This document shows, one piece after another, positions 3,080-12,971 of a DNA stretch of 41,794 nt (position 1 is the stretch's first letter; every line of letters starts with the position of its first letter). The notes under the pieces were generated by a model. That model was not told the origin of the DNA, searched no databases, and worked only from the letters and a program-made list of their open reading frames with translations. Source of the stretch: Methanoregula sp. (GTDB taxonomy: Archaea; Halobacteriota; Methanomicrobia; Methanomicrobiales; Methanospirillaceae). The stretch spans positions 1-41,794 of the forward strand of contig JAPKXX010000042.1 of assembly GCA_026394595.1 (NCBI GenBank). The letters are read 5' to 3'. A program made the translations under genes and the position numbers.

Positions 3080-4587
3080 CAATTGGCAGCATTCCAATGA
3101 GGTTCAAGGTAGATATTGACCGCGACCGGTGCATGCTCTGTGGCAGGTGTGAGGAGAATTGCTCCTATGGCGTATACCGGAAAGATGGCGACAGTATCCA
3201 CATAAATTCCCGCAACTGCGTCGCCTGTCACCGCTGCCTTGCTTTCTGCCCCCGTGATGCGATTGATATTACCGAAAAGCCGACCGATTACCGCAGCCAC
3301 CCGCTCTGGACCCGGGAGGTGCGTGAGGCGATCTTCAACCAGGCAAAAACCGGCAAGATCATCTTATCAGGCATGGGCAATGCGATGCCCTATCCTGTCA
3401 TTTTCGACCGGCTCGTGCTTGATGCCTGCCAAGTAACCAATCCATCCATCGACCCGCTGCGCGAACCAATGGAACTACGGACACATATCGGGAAAAAACC
3501 GGCACAGCTTTCGCTTAAAGAGTCCTCTTCCGGGGATGTTGAGCTCCTGACTAAACTGACTCCGAACCTCCAGATCGAGACTCCCATCATGGTCGCGCAT
3601 ATGAGCTACGGGGCGATCAGCCTGAACGCGCAGCTCTCGCTTGCAAAAGCAGTGAGCCGGATTGGGACATTCATGGGGACAGGGGAAGGAGGGCTCCACG
3701 AAGCACTCTACCCGTACCAGAAGCATATGATCGTGCAGGTGGCATCGGGCAGGTTCGGTGTAGATATAAATTATCTTGAACGAGGAGCGGCAATCGAGAT
3801 CAAGATCGGGCAGGGAGCAAAGCCGGGGATCGGCGGGCACCTGCCCGGAGAGAAGGTATGCGCCGATATCTCATGCACACGGATGATACCGGAGGGAAGC
3901 GATGCGATCAGCCCCGCACCACACCACGACATCTACAGCATTGAGGATCTCAAACAGCTTGTCAGGAGCCTGAAAGAAGCGACTGAATGGAAAAAACCGG
4001 TGTTTGTCAAGATTGCTGCGGTGCATAACTCCGCTGCGATTGCCGCGGGTATCGCCCGCTCTTCAGCGGATGCTGTCGTAATTGACGGGTTTCGTGGCGG
4101 TACCGGAGCGGCCCCCCGTGTGTTCCGCGACCATGTTGGCATCCCCATCGAAGCAGCGGTCGCAAGTGTGGATGCGAAACTCCGCCAGCAAGGGATCAGG
4201 AACGAGGTCTCGATTATTGCAAGCGGTGGTATCCGTCAGAGCGCCGATGTTGCAAAGGCGATTGCACTCGGTGCGGATGCGGTATATATCGGCACTTCCG
4301 CACTCGTTGCGATGGGTTGCAGGGTCTGCGGCACCTGTTACCGGGGCCTCTGCGCATGGGGAATTGCTACCCAGCGCCCTGACCTTGTAGCACGGCTCAA
4401 CCCTGATGAGGCGTCGGTTCAGGTTGAGAATCTTATCCAAGGCTGGACACTGGAACTGGCTGAGCTGATGGGCGCCGCCGGCATCAACAGCATAGAGAGC
4501 CTGCGGGGAAACCGTGACCGTCTCAGGGGTTACATGCTGGATGAAGCGCTGATGAATGTGCTTGATGTGAAATCTGTCGGGGCTTGA
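3076..4587 (+). CDS. Glutamate synthase FMN-binding domain subunit with N-terminal 2x[4Fe-4S] ferredoxin domain
   Basis: CMLCGRCEENCSYGVY / CVACHRCLAFCPRDAI clusters; ETPIMVAHMSYGAISLNAQLSLAKA, GTGEGGLHEA, KIGQGAKPGIGGHLPG, DGFRGGTGAAP, ASGGIR motifs; overlaps previous gene by 4 nt. Confidence 0.95.
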   Translation: MTIGSIPMRFKVDIDRDRCMLCGRCEENCSYGVYRKDGDSIHINSRNCVACHRCLAFCPRDAIDITEKPTDYRSHPLWTREVREAIFNQAKTGKIILSGMGNAMPYPVIFDRLVLDACQVTNPSIDPLREPMELRTHIGKKPAQLSLKESSSGDVELLTKLTPNLQIETPIMVAHMSYGAISLNAQLSLAKAVSRIGTFMGTGEGGLHEALYPYQKHMIVQVASGRFGVDINYLERGAAIEIKIGQGAKPGIGGHLPGEKVCADISCTRMIPEGSDAISPAPHHDIYSIEDLKQLVRSLKEATEWKKPVFVKIAAVHNSAAIAAGIARSSADAVVIDGFRGGTGAAPRVFRDHVGIPIEAAVASVDAKLRQQGIRNEVSIIASGGIRQSADVAKAIALGADAVYIGTSALVAMGCRVCGTCYRGLCAWGIATQRPDLVARLNPDEASVQVENLIQGWTLELAELMGAAGINSIESLRGNRDRLRGYMLDEALMNVLDVKSVGA

Positions 4588-4591
4588 TCTG

Positions 4592-5338
4592 ATGGCGAAA
4601 TCGGTGCGCATCGATGCAAGGGAGATCCACTATACCCCACTCAACCAGATGATCCGCAGAGCGGTCGCCGATGGTGTAACCGAGATTGTGATCGATAATG
4701 TGCTCGGTCAGCGGTTTATTGCCGATGGTTTGCGGGGAGATGCAGTTACCATCACGGTAAACGGCGTCCCCGGGGGAGACCTCGGTATGTTCATGAGTGG
4801 CCCCACGTTAATTGTCCATGGCAATGCAGATCACGCCCCGGGTAACACCATGGACCGGGGTTGCATTGTGATTCATGGAAGCGCAGGTGATGCTGTTGCC
4901 CACAGCATGCGGGGCGGGAGGGTGTATGTGCGGGATGATATCGGGTACCGCGGCGGTATCCACATGAAGCAATACATGGATAAACGCCCGGTCCTGGTTG
5001 TTGGAGGATCAGCCCGTGCATTTGTGGGGGAGTACATGGCGGGGGGACTCCTTGTTGTGCTTGGACTCAGTGGCATACCCCCCCTTTCGGAGCGCGGTGT
5101 CGGCAGTGGAATACATGGCGGAGAGATCTATGTGCGCGGAAACGTTCCTGACAACATATTGGGTGTTGGGGCAAAACAGAACCCGGCAACCGATGAAGAA
5201 AAGCATAAGATCGCACCGGTAATCAAAGACTTTGCATCTAAATTCACACTCGATCCCGCCCCCCTGTTGGCATCTGACTACACGCGGATCGTGCCTGCAA
5301 GCGCCCGCCCGTTTGCAAACAAGTATACCTGGGAGTGA
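4592..5338 (+). CDS. Glutamate synthase GXGXG (GltB C-terminal beta-helix) domain subunit
   Basis: Repeated Gly-rich beta-helix pattern (GNTMDRGCIVIHGSAGDAVAHSMRGGRVYVRDDIGYRGGIHMK); operon position. Confidence 0.92.
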   Translation: MAKSVRIDAREIHYTPLNQMIRRAVADGVTEIVIDNVLGQRFIADGLRGDAVTITVNGVPGGDLGMFMSGPTLIVHGNADHAPGNTMDRGCIVIHGSAGDAVAHSMRGGRVYVRDDIGYRGGIHMKQYMDKRPVLVVGGSARAFVGEYMAGGLLVVLGLSGIPPLSERGVGSGIHGGEIYVRGNVPDNILGVGAKQNPATDEEKHKIAPVIKDFASKFTLDPAPLLASDYTRIVPASARPFANKYTWE

Positions 5339-6384
5339 ATACCATGGCAGAAAAGAGTTACCTTGATCTGAAATCAGAAGTCTGGGATCCAGGACGGTGT
5401 TCCGGTTGTGGTGCGTGTATTGCGGTCTGCCCTGCCGACGCACTCTTTTTTGAAGAGGGTGAGATGGTCACAAGCCCGAAAAGCAACGGTTACTGCAAGC
5501 AGGTGACGGATGGCGTACTTTGCGGTGCATGCTATGAAGTCTGCCCGCGGGAGGGTGACCAACCCTCTGACACCCTTGGGGAGTACCTTAATCTTATCGC
5601 AGCAAAGGCGGCATTTGATGTACCGCGCCGTCAGACCGGGGGCGCAGTCACTGCGATTCTCACAAATGCCCTTGATGAGGGACTCATCGATGCCGTTGTA
5701 ACCGTGACCGAGGACCGATGGACGCAAAAACCCAGATCGGTTGTCATCACGAAATCTGAGGTGCTCATCCACGAAGCAGGGAGCCGGTACAGCTGGTGGG
5801 TGCCATTGCTTTCCTCCCTCAAAAATGCAGTTATCGATAAAAAGTACCGCAGGATAGCGATCGTTGGTGTGCCATGTGTTGTCCAGGCAATCGCCCGCAT
5901 GCGTGCTTCGAACAACGACCTGATCAAGCCCTATGCTACATCGATCCGTCTTATCATCGGGTTGTTCTGCACCGAGACTTTTGATTATGCTTCGCTTGTA
6001 CTGGGAAAACTAAAAAGCGAGAAGAAGATTGATCCCACACAGATCAAAAAAATGGATGTCAGGGGTAAGCTGGAGATCCTGATGCAAAACGGAGAAAAAG
6101 CATCTCTTTCTCTGAAGGAGCTAGAATCATGCGTGCGGAAAGGATGTCACCTATGTACCGATCTGACATCATTGCTTTCCGACATATCAGCAGGCTCAGT
6201 GGGAAGTCCCGCCGGATCCACTACGCTTATTATCCGCACTTCGACTGGTAGCAGCTTTGTCGATAATGCCGTGCAGAATAACAAACTCATAATTACCGGT
6301 GGGGTTGACAAAGGGGAGATCGAGAAGCTCGCAAGGACCAAGATCGAGAAAAATAGTAAGAACCAGTATAAGGTGATTAGGTAA
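5335..6384 (+). CDS. Coenzyme F420 hydrogenase/dehydrogenase beta-subunit (FrhB) family Fe-S flavoprotein, associated with glutamate synthase
   Basis: CSGCGACIAVCPADAL and CGACYEVCPR clusters; RQTGGAVTAILTNALDEGLIDAVVTV, VGVPCVVQAIARMR, LIIGLFCTETFDYASL are FrhB-family hallmarks; 4-nt overlap with GltS GXGXG gene. Confidence 0.92.
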   Translation: MNTMAEKSYLDLKSEVWDPGRCSGCGACIAVCPADALFFEEGEMVTSPKSNGYCKQVTDGVLCGACYEVCPREGDQPSDTLGEYLNLIAAKAAFDVPRRQTGGAVTAILTNALDEGLIDAVVTVTEDRWTQKPRSVVITKSEVLIHEAGSRYSWWVPLLSSLKNAVIDKKYRRIAIVGVPCVVQAIARMRASNNDLIKPYATSIRLIIGLFCTETFDYASLVLGKLKSEKKIDPTQIKKMDVRGKLEILMQNGEKASLSLKELESCVRKGCHLCTDLTSLLSDISAGSVGSPAGSTTLIIRTSTGSSFVDNAVQNNKLIITGGVDKGEIEKLARTKIEKNSKNQYKVIR

Positions 6385-6517
6385 AACCGGAACTCAATAT
6401 TAAGGAGAGGGGAATACCTGTCTTCAGCAAATATATTCTTTGGAAATCATCTGTACACCGTCCCTGTCTTCTGGTCAGGCATCGTTAAAATTGGTATAAT
6501 TCTCTCAATAACCTTCA

Positions 6518-7885
6518 TTATTTTCTCCGATGGACCCGCGTCAGCGGTGAGCAGCGCTCAAAGAACATCGCGATGAACTGGGCGAATTGTTCCTGCCAGC
6601 AGCCTGCCCCCTCCTCCACCCGCCAGCCATTAGTAAGCGACTGACGGATATGTTTGCCGAGGCTTACATTGAGGAGGGAGGGGGATGCGAGCAGACTTTT
6701 TGCCGTTGTAAACTCCCGTGAGACCTCCATCTCATACCGTCCGTTTTCAATATAGGGGCCGGGATATGTGGAACCGAGATGTTTTTCACGGAACTTCTCG
6801 GCGTTTGTACGATTCCAGAGTGGGGGTCCCATATGCCGGCGGATCCGCGGAAGTTCGGAAACGAGGAGTTCAAAAAGGAGCATACAACGATCGGGTTCCA
6901 TCCGGTAATGGGCGTGGTGCACCGTAAAACCATTTCGTTCGAGGTGCTCGCAGATCGAAACGACGCTCCGCTTCAGCTGGGGAACGACAATCTCCTCTAT
7001 ATAAGGCGGTGTTTCAAAGGTAACGGCAAACAGTGAGGCACATCGTTGTTCGAGAAGTGTTGCGAGTTCATCTTGTGTGATCAGCCGCGGTTCCGGCAAC
7101 ACAAAGAACATCTCGGATGGTTTTTCGAGGTATCCACGCGCCAGCTCGATAAACTCCACCATCCTGTCTAAAGATACCGCTGCCGCAACGTTACGTTTCG
7201 GGTCTACCGGATCGATCACGATCAGGCATTCGTTAAATGTTTTTGCCGCGTGGTGCTCAATATCTATAATTGTTCCCGGCCGCCACTCGGCAGCTGCTTT
7301 CAGTAAAGGAATAAAACCCCCGTAGTGCAGCACCAGAAGTTCGCACAGGTATCCGGAGAACCCCTCAGTCATTTGATCGGAACCATAGATCCCGCCTGTC
7401 TTTGCAAACTGTTTCAGGAGAAGGACATCATCAATGAACCCGTCAATCTTGTCGGTGATATACCGGGTATGGAACGGTGTTCGGTCAACAGCGCTCTGGA
7501 TTGTCGTAGCGCTCGCTACCTCATAACAGGGTACAATATCCACATCAATTCCGTCAATAGAGGCATAAATGTACGGGTGCTCGGCATACTTCTCAAAGAA
7601 CCTGTCAGTAAACTGCGCAGCGATACGGCGTGCCAGTGCCATTCCCTGCTCCTCCAGAGCTTCGCGGGAGAGAGATGGATGAAAGAGAAGAAAGATATCG
7701 ATATCATGTTCGCCGCTCACCCAGGTGTTGCGTGCTATGGAGCCCACCACCATTCCCTGTGCCTGTCCAATCGCTGCGATAGCATTGAGTATCAGCCGGG
7801 CAACACCGCAAATCTGATCCCGTTCCTTTCCCTTGGGACGGATGCGGGAAAGTATCTTGTTTTCAAGTGGGGTTCTTTTTACCAT
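6518..7885 (-). CDS. cca: Archaeal CCA-adding tRNA nucleotidyltransferase (class I)
   Basis: 455 aa; VVGSIARNTWVSGEHDIDIFLLF (GS...DxD nucleotidyltransferase motif), IDVDIVPCY, LLKQFAKTGGIYGSDQMTEGFSGYLCELLVLHYG. Confidence 0.96.
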   Translation of the reverse strand: MVKRTPLENKILSRIRPKGKERDQICGVARLILNAIAAIGQAQGMVVGSIARNTWVSGEHDIDIFLLFHPSLSREALEEQGMALARRIAAQFTDRFFEKYAEHPYIYASIDGIDVDIVPCYEVASATTIQSAVDRTPFHTRYITDKIDGFIDDVLLLKQFAKTGGIYGSDQMTEGFSGYLCELLVLHYGGFIPLLKAAAEWRPGTIIDIEHHAAKTFNECLIVIDPVDPKRNVAAAVSLDRMVEFIELARGYLEKPSEMFFVLPEPRLITQDELATLLEQRCASLFAVTFETPPYIEEIVVPQLKRSVVSICEHLERNGFTVHHAHYRMEPDRCMLLFELLVSELPRIRRHMGPPLWNRTNAEKFREKHLGSTYPGPYIENGRYEMEVSREFTTAKSLLASPSLLNVSLGKHIRQSLTNGWRVEEGAGCWQEQFAQFIAMFFERCSPLTRVHRRK

Positions 7886-8418: not shown

Positions 8419-8543
8419 CAGGGTACTATTATTCCATTCCCCTACAAATGGCATTCGATGATCGTGACTTACAGCAATTGTTAAAAACTAAGTTTTTCTA
8501 TTCGAAGAACCCATTATTTGATAACGAAGCAAGGGTGTTTTTT

Positions 8544-8813
8544 ATGCCGACCAATCCCATTCTGATCGTCTATACGCTCGAGCACTGTCCAAACTGCGAC
8601 GTGCTGAAGGCTTATTTAAAAACAAGCGGGAATCGATTTACCGAGAGAGATCTGTCCACGGCGGAATCCCTTACGGAACTGCGAGTCAACGGCATTTTTG
8701 TTTCCGAAGCACCGGTTCTCCAAAAGGGGGATGAGTTTTTCACAACCTCAGACCTCTTTGATAGCGGCAAAGTGGATGCAGAGCGGATCACCAGGTTTGT
8801 TTCAGGTGCATGA
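8544..8813 (+). CDS. Glutaredoxin/NrdH-like redoxin with CPNC active site
   Basis: MPTNPILIVYTLEHCPNCDVLKAYLKTSGNRFTERDL...; internal ATG of the 8448-8813 ORF; 4-nt overlap with nrdD. Confidence 0.88.
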   Translation: MPTNPILIVYTLEHCPNCDVLKAYLKTSGNRFTERDLSTAESLTELRVNGIFVSEAPVLQKGDEFFTTSDLFDSGKVDAERITRFVSGA

Positions 8814-10999
8814 TGGGACTACACGAGACCAAACAGAAAACTCTTGACGGCGTTTATATTCCTCTCCTCCCCCCCGTCCGGACAACTGACGGGCATATCA
8901 TCGACTATGATCGCAACCGGATCGTCCGGCAGATTGTGGATGAGACCCGGCTTGTCGAGACTTTCTATGGCTATGAAGGCGCAACCGAGGAACAGGCGCA
9001 GCAGATTGCCCGCGAGGTTGAGCAGCGGATTCAGGGACTAGGATTAAAATCCCTTTCCGGTCCCCTGATCCGCGAGATTGTAAACATGGCTCTGCTTGAG
9101 AAGGGGCTCGTGCAGTACCGGAATGTCTGTACCCGTGTGGGTACACCGGTATTTGATGCCCACCTGATCGATGTTGGGAGGGGTTTTGAGGCGCATGACA
9201 ATGCAAACCTCCAGGAGAATGCTGAAACTTCACATAAGAAAAAAGCTGACAAGATCAGCAAAGAACAATATCTCCTCCAACTCCCACCCGATCTTGCAGA
9301 TCACCACCTTTCCGGCGACTTGCACATCCATGATCTCGAGTACTTTGGCACCCGCCCGTTCTGCCAGGACTGGGACCTCCGATATTTCTTCTATTACGGT
9401 TTGATGCCCGATGGGAACGGGACGAAGGCATCCGTGGCAGGACCAGCCAAACGTGCAGAGGTGGCAATCCTCCACGCGGTCAAGGCGCTGGGATCCGCGC
9501 AGACGAACTTTGCCGGCGGACAGGGATACTATAACTTTCTCACATTCCTTGCGCCATTCTTTGAGGGACTCCCCTACGATGAGATCAAGCAGATGATGCA
9601 GATGTTTGTATATGAAATGACCCAGATGATGGTCGCCCGCGGAGGCCAGCTTGTCTTCTCATCGATCCAGCTCTCACCCGGTGTCCCGTCTCTCTGGCTT
9701 GACAAACCCTGCGTGTACAAAGGTAAGATATGGGACGGAAAATCAGCACCCCGCCACACGTATGGAGAATTCGAACGAGAGGTGCGCCTGCTCTTCAAGG
9801 CAATTATGGAAGTGATGCTTGAGGGAGATTACTGGGGTAAACCCTTCAGCTTCCCAAAACCGGAGATCTCGATAGAGCCGGACTTCATGAACGAGCGCGA
9901 AGAGTTCAACCGTGCACACCCCGATCTTCCCACATACCGAGAACTCTACCTGCTCACCTTTGAACTTGCAAGCAAATTCGGCACCCCTTACTACGACAAC
10001 CAGCTTCCTGAATACCGCGGTGCGGGAAAGGGTATCTCCTGTTATCAGTGCTGTGCGTACCAGTTCTCGGCTGTTGCGGACAAGGACTCCGACTTCGATA
10101 AAAAACTCTTCTTTGAAAACGGCAGACACTTCTCCATGGGGTCGTGGCAGGTAGTATCCGTGAACTGCCCTCGGGCAGCGTACAATGCGGAAGGTGATGA
10201 CACACGCCTGTTTGGTGAGCTCAAGGCACTCATGGATGAATCTATCGAGATATTTAAGATCAAACGGCGCTGGATGAACCTTATCCGCGCGCACAGCAGG
10301 ATGCCGTTTGCGATGCAGCGCCCCAAAGATCCCAATACCGGTGAGCGGGGTGCGGTTGCAGTAGATCTTGAAGGGCTCGTTTATACTATCGGGGTTGTCG
10401 GTGTGAATGAAATGGTGCAGCATCACACTGGCAAGCAGATCCATGAATCCAAAGAAGCATTTAAACTCGCTATCCGTGCAATGACCGAAATGGAGCTCTA
10501 TGCAAAGAAGCTTTCCCAGATAAACAATATGACGATAGCACTCGCACGCACCCCGGCGGAGACAACCGGGCAGCGCTTTGCTGTTGCTGACCTGCTCAAC
10601 AAGCGGTACCACGATTATGCAGTGAAAGTGATCAAGGGGGACCTTGATTATACGCTCGGGATGCTGGGAAAGACCTCCGACCTTCCAGTGTATTACACAA
10701 ATGGAACTCACGTGGCGCCAGGAGCAAATGTCCCGCTCACGAAGCGCATGGAAATCGAACATGTCTTCTTCCCAATCGTCGACGGCGGCAACATATTCCA
10801 TATCTGGCTGGGTGAGGCGCGCCCTGATCCACGGGGCTTGTATGACATGGCGATGAAGTTATGCAAGAATACCCAGATCGGATATTTTGCGTTCACCCGC
10901 GACCTTACTGTTTCGCTCCGTCAGTTTCATGAGTACCGATCTGAGAAGAAGACAATCCCCCAAGGGGTAGCGTCAAATACTCTGGTCGGGGCATCATAA
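8810..10999 (+). CDS. nrdD: Anaerobic (class III) ribonucleoside-triphosphate reductase large subunit, apparently lacking C-terminal Zn/glycyl-radical region
   Basis: 729 aa; N-terminal ATP-cone-like region, GDLHIHDLEYF, TNFAGGQGYYNFLTFLAPFF, GKGISCYQCCAYQF, GSWQVVSVNCPRAAY. Ends NTQIGYFAFTRDLTVSLRQFHEYRSEKKTIPQGVASNTLVGAS with no CxxC pairs. Confidence 0.93.
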   Translation: MMGLHETKQKTLDGVYIPLLPPVRTTDGHIIDYDRNRIVRQIVDETRLVETFYGYEGATEEQAQQIAREVEQRIQGLGLKSLSGPLIREIVNMALLEKGLVQYRNVCTRVGTPVFDAHLIDVGRGFEAHDNANLQENAETSHKKKADKISKEQYLLQLPPDLADHHLSGDLHIHDLEYFGTRPFCQDWDLRYFFYYGLMPDGNGTKASVAGPAKRAEVAILHAVKALGSAQTNFAGGQGYYNFLTFLAPFFEGLPYDEIKQMMQMFVYEMTQMMVARGGQLVFSSIQLSPGVPSLWLDKPCVYKGKIWDGKSAPRHTYGEFEREVRLLFKAIMEVMLEGDYWGKPFSFPKPEISIEPDFMNEREEFNRAHPDLPTYRELYLLTFELASKFGTPYYDNQLPEYRGAGKGISCYQCCAYQFSAVADKDSDFDKKLFFENGRHFSMGSWQVVSVNCPRAAYNAEGDDTRLFGELKALMDESIEIFKIKRRWMNLIRAHSRMPFAMQRPKDPNTGERGAVAVDLEGLVYTIGVVGVNEMVQHHTGKQIHESKEAFKLAIRAMTEMELYAKKLSQINNMTIALARTPAETTGQRFAVADLLNKRYHDYAVKVIKGDLDYTLGMLGKTSDLPVYYTNGTHVAPGANVPLTKRMEIEHVFFPIVDGGNIFHIWLGEARPDPRGLYDMAMKLCKNTQIGYFAFTRDLTVSLRQFHEYRSEKKTIPQGVASNTLVGAS

Positions 11000-11083
11000 C
11001 CGCACGGTTCGCACCATACAGTGACTTATAACCTAACATTCCCGACCATTACTTTTTTTACATTAAAAACGAGAGCATGAAGT

Positions 11084-11827
11084 ATGCAGCGACACTATGC
11101 CCCCTTTATCATTCTCATCATCGCCCTTGTTCTTACCTGCGGCTGCTTCGGTTTCCAAGCAAAATCCCAGAACGAACAGGCGGCTACGACGGTCCAGCAA
11201 ACGGTGACAACAATTGCCCCTGTAGTGCCAACCGTGATTACCGTTGAAACGACAGTAACTCCTCAACCGACACAGGATCCGTTCCCGAACGCGCTGAAAT
11301 TGAAACAGACGTTCAATTTCAGCAGTGGTAAGAGCGCAAGTGAGGGAACGGTATACCGGTACTGGATGAATGACACCTATCAGCTCTTTGATCCACGGGA
11401 AACACGCTATGTGACAAAATATCCTGCTTCGGGAAACAAATACCTGATAATCTTTGTTAATGTGGTGAACCGTGGCACCACCCGTACGTTCCCACCGAGG
11501 TCATCGAATATTATCCTCCATTATGATGGTCAAAACTATTATCCAGATTCTACTCATCTCCTCCCGATGACTGAGCGGAATAAAGACGCGCCACCTGAGA
11601 TTATTCGGATCGGCCAGATCGAGTTCTTCCATAAACTGTACGGTTCTGAATATGTGGAGGATTTTGGATATTCCCATGGAATGGAGCAGGCGTATCTGAA
11701 TCCAGGGGAAAGCAATGCTATAGATGGCTATATCGTCTATGAAGTTCCCGCTTCCCTGACCCCGGAAAAGACCTATGTTGAGATCGGTTTCAACTCCCAA
11801 GCAAGTGCAGTCTGGAAACTTGGATAA
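11084..11827 (+). CDS. Predicted surface lipoprotein, paralogous ectodomain to the adjacent gene
   Basis: Signal peptide FIILIIALVLTCGCFG with lipobox-like Cys, Thr/Pro-rich linker, then a domain shared with the 11900-12971 gene (NFSSGK, NKYLIIFVNVVNRG, YPGESNAIDGY-like). Confidence 0.8.
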   Translation: MQRHYAPFIILIIALVLTCGCFGFQAKSQNEQAATTVQQTVTTIAPVVPTVITVETTVTPQPTQDPFPNALKLKQTFNFSSGKSASEGTVYRYWMNDTYQLFDPRETRYVTKYPASGNKYLIIFVNVVNRGTTRTFPPRSSNIILHYDGQNYYPDSTHLLPMTERNKDAPPEIIRIGQIEFFHKLYGSEYVEDFGYSHGMEQAYLNPGESNAIDGYIVYEVPASLTPEKTYVEIGFNSQASAVWKLG

Positions 11828-11899: not shown

Positions 11900-12971
11900 A
11901 TGCCGTTCTGTATATCCTGTGGGAAAGAGATCTCTAGCCGCGCAAAGTTCTGCGGACATTGCGGGACTCCAGTCGATCATGCAGGAACCCTGCCGCCTGT
12001 TCAGGTCCCCCCACAGGCTCCACCCTCACCACCTCCTCTCACCTCTCCACCACAAGCCCCGATAAATACCCCCGCCGCTCCCCCAATTCCTCCGCTTGTG
12101 CAGCCTGACTACGAGCCCGCCCCATTTATAGACACCCCGCGTTCACCTATACCTCAGTCTCTTGTTGTACCCCCACCCCCAACCCCGTCATCTAATGTTC
12201 CTGCAACGGTGCCAGTGTCATCTAAAAACAAAAAGGTTATTATCGCTATTTTCGCGATTCTTATTGTCATAGTCGGTGTATATGTGTTCGTCTTACCAAA
12301 AATTTCCAGCATTCAGGTCGCTGGTTCTGGAATATCTGGCTCTACGACCCCGTCTCCTTCTATAACAACTGCCCCTCCGGCAACAACAATTCCCACCCCG
12401 ACACCTGTCCCGACACCGATACCCGAATTATTCCCGGGTGCGCTCTCAATCAGGACATGGTATAACTTCAGTAGTGGTAAGACCGCAGGTCAGGCTACTG
12501 TCTACGACACATGGGTTAATGGTACATACCTTTGGCACAAACAGTGACAACAAATGGTATATCCAGAATCCACAAGAGGGGAACAAGTATCTCCTTGTTT
12601 TTATCAATATCGTGAACCGCGGGGATACCCGGGTATGGTACCCAAAGTCAAGTAGTATCGTCGTCCACTACAACAACCAGCTATACAACCCCGACCCCTT
12701 GCATTATATACCTGAAATATCTGGAGGCAATACCGAGGCAACCCCCCTTGAGATCGGTGAGGTGCAGTACCGCCATAACCTGTTCAATACAGAATATGTG
12801 CAGGATTACGGGCTTTCGCATGGGACGAAATCGGACTTCGTCTATCCGGGCGAAAGTAATGCGATTGACGGGTATCTTATTTATGAAGTGCCTGAATCAC
12901 TGACCTTGGATAAAACTTATGTTGATATTGTATTCAATGGTCAGGACCGTGCAGTCTGGAAAGTTGGATAA
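11900..12971 (+). pseudogene. Zinc-ribbon/TM/ectodomain membrane protein, interrupted by a frameshift near 12530-12547
   Basis: ORF 11900-12547 (zinc ribbon CISCGKEISSRAKFCGHCG, Pro-rich, TM, then NFSSGKTAGQATVYDTWVNGTYLW) continues in another frame in ORF 12438-12971 (DNKWYIQNPQEGNKYLLVFINIVNRG...). Together they align to the 11084 paralogue. Could be pseudogene, sequencing error or recoding. Confidence 0.82.

Follow-up and report, generated by a model that had tools for sequence, protein, structure and literature searches.

Class III ribonucleotide reductases (RNRs) have been described with the radical glycine in the active-site chain (PMC9669993, PMC9531940). The 41,794-nucleotide stretch of Methanoregula sp. 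DNA analysed here (the window) encodes the class III catalytic protein NrdD, and an initial annotation of the sequence had noted that this protein appears to lack the C-terminal zinc site and glycyl-radical motif. The locus therefore poses the question of whether such an NrdD can work and, if so, where its zinc/glycyl-radical domain (GRD) is encoded. The features of the window that bear on this question are as follows.

8448..8813, + strand: NrdH-like glutaredoxin (CPNC), 121 aa; Pfam Glutaredoxin 23.1 bits, just above the cut-off
8810..10999, + strand: class III RNR catalytic subunit without a GRD (NrdD core), 729 aa; complete NRDD core
9362..9364, + strand: C185, which lines up with the class III first active-site cysteine region; invariant among relatives of both kinds, split and fused
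10040..10054, + strand: C411-Y-Q-C414-C415, the finger-loop cysteines; C411, C414 and C415 invariant
10166..10168, + strand: C453 (NCPR); invariant
10913..10915, + strand: S702, at the first zinc Cys position of fused NrdDs and would-be GRD start; from alignment with T. maritima C594 and fused archaeal homologues
10916..10999, + strand: short, variable C-terminus of 27 aa, then the stop codon, in place of the zinc/glycyl-radical domain

The window protein possesses the NRDD catalytic core of class III RNRs and belongs to the NRDD family, not to class II NrdJ. It matches Pfam NRDD (PF13597) with 443 bits over residues 130-703 and TIGR02487 with 471 bits (cut-off 326), and an ATP-cone match is weak (23.8 bits, below the 25.8 cut-off). 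Both the Pfam and the NCBIfam profile end about 50 positions short, the matches reaching only position 512 of 562 and 530 of 581, respectively. Consistent with this, alignment to T. maritima NrdD runs no further than S702, opposite Tm C594, the first Zn-site cysteine, and the C-terminus, ...GYFAFTRDLTVSLRQFHEYRSEKKTIPQGVASNTLVGAS, contains neither a CxxC pair nor RVxGY. The same-chain C-terminal domain is thus absent, as the annotation had proposed, and a search of the window contig with a GRD profile gave no match, in line with its remark that the missing domain is not supplied nearby. Its suggestion that QIGYF might itself be the radical loop is excluded, since fused homologues share the GYFAFT segment and have a separate RVTGY further on.

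The catalytic regions upstream, by contrast, had been judged intact, and indeed C185, C411, C414, C415 and C453 are all present and invariant in the alignment of split and fused relatives. From the class III literature, the catalytic thiyl radical would be expected on the finger-loop cysteines C411, C414 and C415 (PMC9669993), while C453 may be the third active-site cysteine, as in NrdD3 (definition in PMC4493059). Synonymous sites of NrdD were saturated, and dN/dS gave no estimate. The redoxin gene overlaps the start of nrdD by 4 bases, and its product is the likely electron donor of the window NrdD.

The short NrdD is not confined to the window. It is present in 97 of 100 genomes of the window's family (the closest GRD loci carry the names Methanoregula and Methanoregulaceae in their GenBank titles) and in 109 of 119 genomes of the class, the ten without it all belonging to genus g26. 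Full-length relatives are 77-94% identical and conserved across the order. Every Methanomicrobiales tail that we read ends about 20-35 aa past GYFAFTRD, without CxxC and without RVxGY; an LRQFHE-like start of the tail is conserved and the remainder is variable. Homologues outside Methanomicrobiales run on as TVCMNDFHVASGLLDSCSNCSSDNVEHLSRVTGYVQAVGGWNAAKKQELKDR into the GRD. A tree built from 28 NrdD cores places all split copies, including the viral one described below, in one clade with support of 95/95, in which the viral branch is long; the topology is consistent with a single origin of the split. Of the options raised at the outset, a distinct NrdD subtype therefore fits, the short NrdD being one clade covering Methanomicrobiales, and a truncated copy was wrong.

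The other option, a GRD encoded as a separate protein, was also borne out. A genome-wide search with the GRD profile returned a single match, on contig C110 of the window genome (G000).

G000:C110:23725-24084, - strand: stand-alone GRD protein, 120 aa, with zinc ribbons and SRVTGY

The best family matches of this protein are the C-terminal ends of NRDD (PF13597) and TIGR02487, and the PFL-type Gly_radical family PF01228 has no match in the window genome. In the solved NrdD of P. copri, the GRD profile matches at 697-737 only, and Gly95 of the GRD aligns with the G of RITGYL. If the deposited chain carries a 4-residue tag, as its length (743 versus 739) suggests, this glycine would be the published radical Gly711. 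Across 45 named GRD homologues, the zinc-ribbon cysteines and nearly the whole of a 23-residue block are invariant or nearly so. One candidate, a partial NrdD-like ORF in G001 (L031), was rejected as a stand-alone GRD, being a fragment of an NrdD C-terminus without the radical motif. AlphaFold2 gave a pLDDT of 66 for the GRD alone and 52 for the NrdD core (five-sequence alignment), too poor for docking. The cellular GRD gene is flanked by pyrF-like and cbiZ-like genes in a conserved arrangement; both families were confirmed in the window's genome. The ORFs that follow appear, as read by eye, to encode RPA-like ssDNA-binding and RPA-associated proteins. This neighbourhood fits nucleotide and DNA metabolism, which we take as supporting evidence only.

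The distribution of the two genes was followed with two profiles. When 30 genomes were searched with the fused C-terminal domain (profile A2), every NrdD-bearing Methanomicrobiales genome yielded a hit of E 1e-17 to 1e-22 in a short ORF distinct from nrdD (frame length 121-237 aa); the two g26 genomes in the set gave no match or E = 0.6. With the stand-alone GRD as profile (A3), all 67 sampled NrdD-bearing Methanomicrobiales genomes gave a full-length match (200-250 bits), and none of 8 genomes of g26, the genus without NrdD, did so. Each of the 67 genomes has one GRD match, the stand-alone protein, except G107, where a second, weak match lies in a 569-aa frame; no GRD-bearing NrdD was found in these genomes by the GRD profile. 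Because the A3 search detects fused GRDs elsewhere in the phylum, its failure to find one in Methanomicrobiales NrdD frames is informative. The activase follows the same pattern. No nrdG adjoins the window nrdD, as had been noted, and NrdG2 is encoded on contig C98 of the same genome (146.8 bits, cut-off 131); it occurs in 107 of 108 non-g26 genomes versus 0 of 11 g26 genomes. The genes for NrdD, GRD and NrdG2 are retained jointly and lost jointly, although shared descent accounts for part of the co-occurrence inside a single order. Genus g26 (G115, G119, G124, G132 and others), which lacks all three, relies on class II NrdJ, and its loss was perhaps a single event.

Some genomes appear to depend on this set of proteins. 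By PF02867, no class I or II RNR was found in 19 genomes of at least 90% completeness, among them the single-contig G024, G058 and G060, and the stand-alone GRD is present in 9 of 9 tested genomes of this group. Because dNTP synthesis needs an RNR, the split enzyme would be the working RNR of these 19 genomes, and on gene content split class III appears to be the sole RNR of some Methanomicrobiales methanogens. A search for PFL-like glycyl-radical enzymes found none in 117 of 119 genomes, which leaves NrdD as the only likely barrel to host the GRD.

One viral contig brings the two genes together. On the 128-kb IMG/VR contig IMGVR_UViG_3300002220_006617 (L196), three genes follow one another, for the GRD, an NrdH-like redoxin and an NrdD that lacks a GRD; behind them lie genes for a methylase, a ThyA-like protein and MCM.

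4324-4728: stand-alone GRD, 45% identical to that of the window genome
4756-4998: NrdH-like redoxin, directly preceding NrdD
5001-7073: NrdD, 63% identical, ending GYFAFTRDITISKNEYRWRRS, without a GRD

Other viral NrdDs (L191-L193, L201) have their own fused GRD, with no separate GRD within the contig stretch examined. A further seven predicted viral contigs (L184-L190, of which two are near-identical over the examined stretch) encode a stand-alone GRD; a terminase gene lies within the examined stretch in four of these, and a non-exhaustive pattern scan revealed no NrdD on any of them. Phage and plasmid collections contained no stand-alone GRD, the single plasmid match being partial to the query and annotated nrdD. 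In G099 (contig C297), a 57%-identical NrdD fragment (L033) with the end GYFAFTRDLTIPLRRYRWYAEPA is followed by a redoxin gene; it is another GRD-less NrdD, perhaps of viral origin.

Taken together, we propose with high confidence (probability about 0.88) that the window NrdD is the catalytic half of an obligate two-subunit, or split, class III RNR, and that the stand-alone 120-aa GRD is its other half. This reading rests on anatomy, distribution and viral linkage; counting against it, NrdD, GRD and nrdG are unlinked in cellular genomes. By analogy with class III enzymes (PMC11226230, PMC9669993, PMC4493059), NrdG2 would abstract a hydrogen from the GRD subunit at Gly95, and the radical-bearing GRD loop would, as fused class III structures suggest, insert into the open NrdD barrel beside the finger-loop cysteines. 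The finger-loop thiyl radical would then initiate NTP reduction, and the NrdH-like redoxin may re-reduce the NrdD active site.

The chief alternative is that the small GRD acts purely as a repair part in the manner of YfiD, serving NrdD or some other glycyl-radical enzyme, and that the short NrdD starts its chemistry in some other way. YfiD and Y06I are such parts for PFL (PMC8683613), and a repair role would fit those genomes of family f8 that have a stand-alone GRD together with a fused NrdD. However, no intact GRD-bearing NrdD was found in Methanomicrobiales, a PFL-like enzyme is missing from nearly all genomes searched, and the viral GRD gene adjoins a GRD-less NrdD, so that we regard a pure repair role as improbable. 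The comparison with YfiD made in the initial annotation accordingly stands for the small radical-carrying protein itself but not for its role, since YfiD repairs an enzyme that bears a GRD and no GRD-bearing NrdD was found here.

It is very improbable that class II NrdJ makes the dNTPs, with the short NrdD an inactive or decaying paralogue and the small GRD a leftover. NrdJ is indeed encoded in the window genome (G000:C59, 593 bits) and in most of the class, but the order-wide identity of NrdD, the invariance of its catalytic cysteines, the 19 genomes without any class I/II RNR and the retention of the GRD in every sampled genome with NrdD all argue against decay. There is next to no chance that an assembly error, frameshift or recoding conceals a normal C-terminal domain. 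Although the window genome is a draft (83.5% complete, 121 contigs), full-length relatives show the same NrdD end in many independent genomes, several of them closed, no GRD is encoded close to the stop, and the genome's single GRD lies on another contig; by these comparative data the artefact is already refuted. Enzymes with alanine, serine or threonine radicals (PMC11528403) were set aside, as the partner protein has a normal RVTGY glycine.

How the split enzyme arose may be read from family f8, outside Methanomicrobiales, where several genomes (e.g. G192, G207, G305, G356) have an extra stand-alone GRD alongside a fused NrdD. In their extended zinc-ribbon layout these proteins resemble those of Methanomicrobiales and not the fused domains, and they are candidate spare parts for a class III RNR. 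The GRDs at L085, L086, L089 and L090 (G192, G305, G207 and G356, respectively), and also L087 and L088, are of about 118-131 aa with a different N-terminus; L088 is without the GWN...QELKDR block and looks degenerate. The split could plausibly have begun with a spare-part GRD that turned obligatory, although this history is unproven. Extending this, the GRD could be an exchangeable subunit, with viruses of these methanogens supplying, on infection, only a GRD that charges or takes over the host NrdD core, and the order-wide split descending from a spare part that became obligatory, a scenario that we advance tentatively and hold somewhat less probable than even.

The proposed enzyme resembles class III NrdD (NrdD3/NrdDa-like, with fused homologues in sister lineages, L048-L054) in its NRDD core, its conserved cysteines, the NrdH-like redoxin next door and the NrdG2 activase in the genome, but differs in that the C-terminal Zn/glycyl-radical domain is off-chain, as a separate protein. 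With the PFL spare parts YfiD/GrcA and T4 Y06I it shares a small stand-alone protein with a glycyl-radical motif, also found in viruses; in contrast to these, the GRD here matches the C-terminal end of the NRDD profile and has zinc ribbons, and a parent enzyme with its own GRD was not found in Methanomicrobiales. As of 2021, spare parts had been validated for PFL only (PMC8683613). A catalytic subunit combined with a small C-terminal subunit is also known from the split class II RNR NrdJa-NrdJb of Pseudomonas aeruginosa, which as of 2015 was the sole split RNR known outside viruses (PMC4520616). That enzyme, however, is class II and adenosylcobalamin-dependent, both its subunits are encoded in one operon, and the small subunit NrdJb functions in disulfide exchange and carries no radical (PMC4520616). 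We found no earlier report of a split class III RNR in the open-access literature; key subscription papers were outside the search, and a prior mention is possible.

In a natural two-part class III RNR, radical installation and nucleotide reduction would be separable, and each could be titrated or mutated independently. Two published questions would become directly testable with it, namely the movement of the GRD (PMC11226230) and the existence of spare parts beyond PFL (PMC8683613).

Several minor observations concern interrupted genes and the surroundings of nrdD. In many Methanomicrobiales, NrdD lies in frames of 1200-2000 aa (e.g. L036:642-4277) that are broken close to residues 185-188, 407-417 or both, in the vicinity of conserved cysteines; one of these interruptions was confirmed as intein-like by LAGLIDADG and Intein_splicing matches. 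Similarly, in G116, G130, G148 and others of genus g21, the NrdJ profile match is split at about position 282 within a single frame of about 1100 aa, probably by another intein. Downstream of nrdD in the window, two neighbouring genes (11084-11827 and 11900-12971) encode similar proteins, predicted to be membrane-bound or secreted, the former with a weak DUF4352 match and the latter with an N-terminal zinc ribbon. A frameshift may affect the second gene, which appears as a pair of overlapping frames (11900-12547 and 12438-12971).
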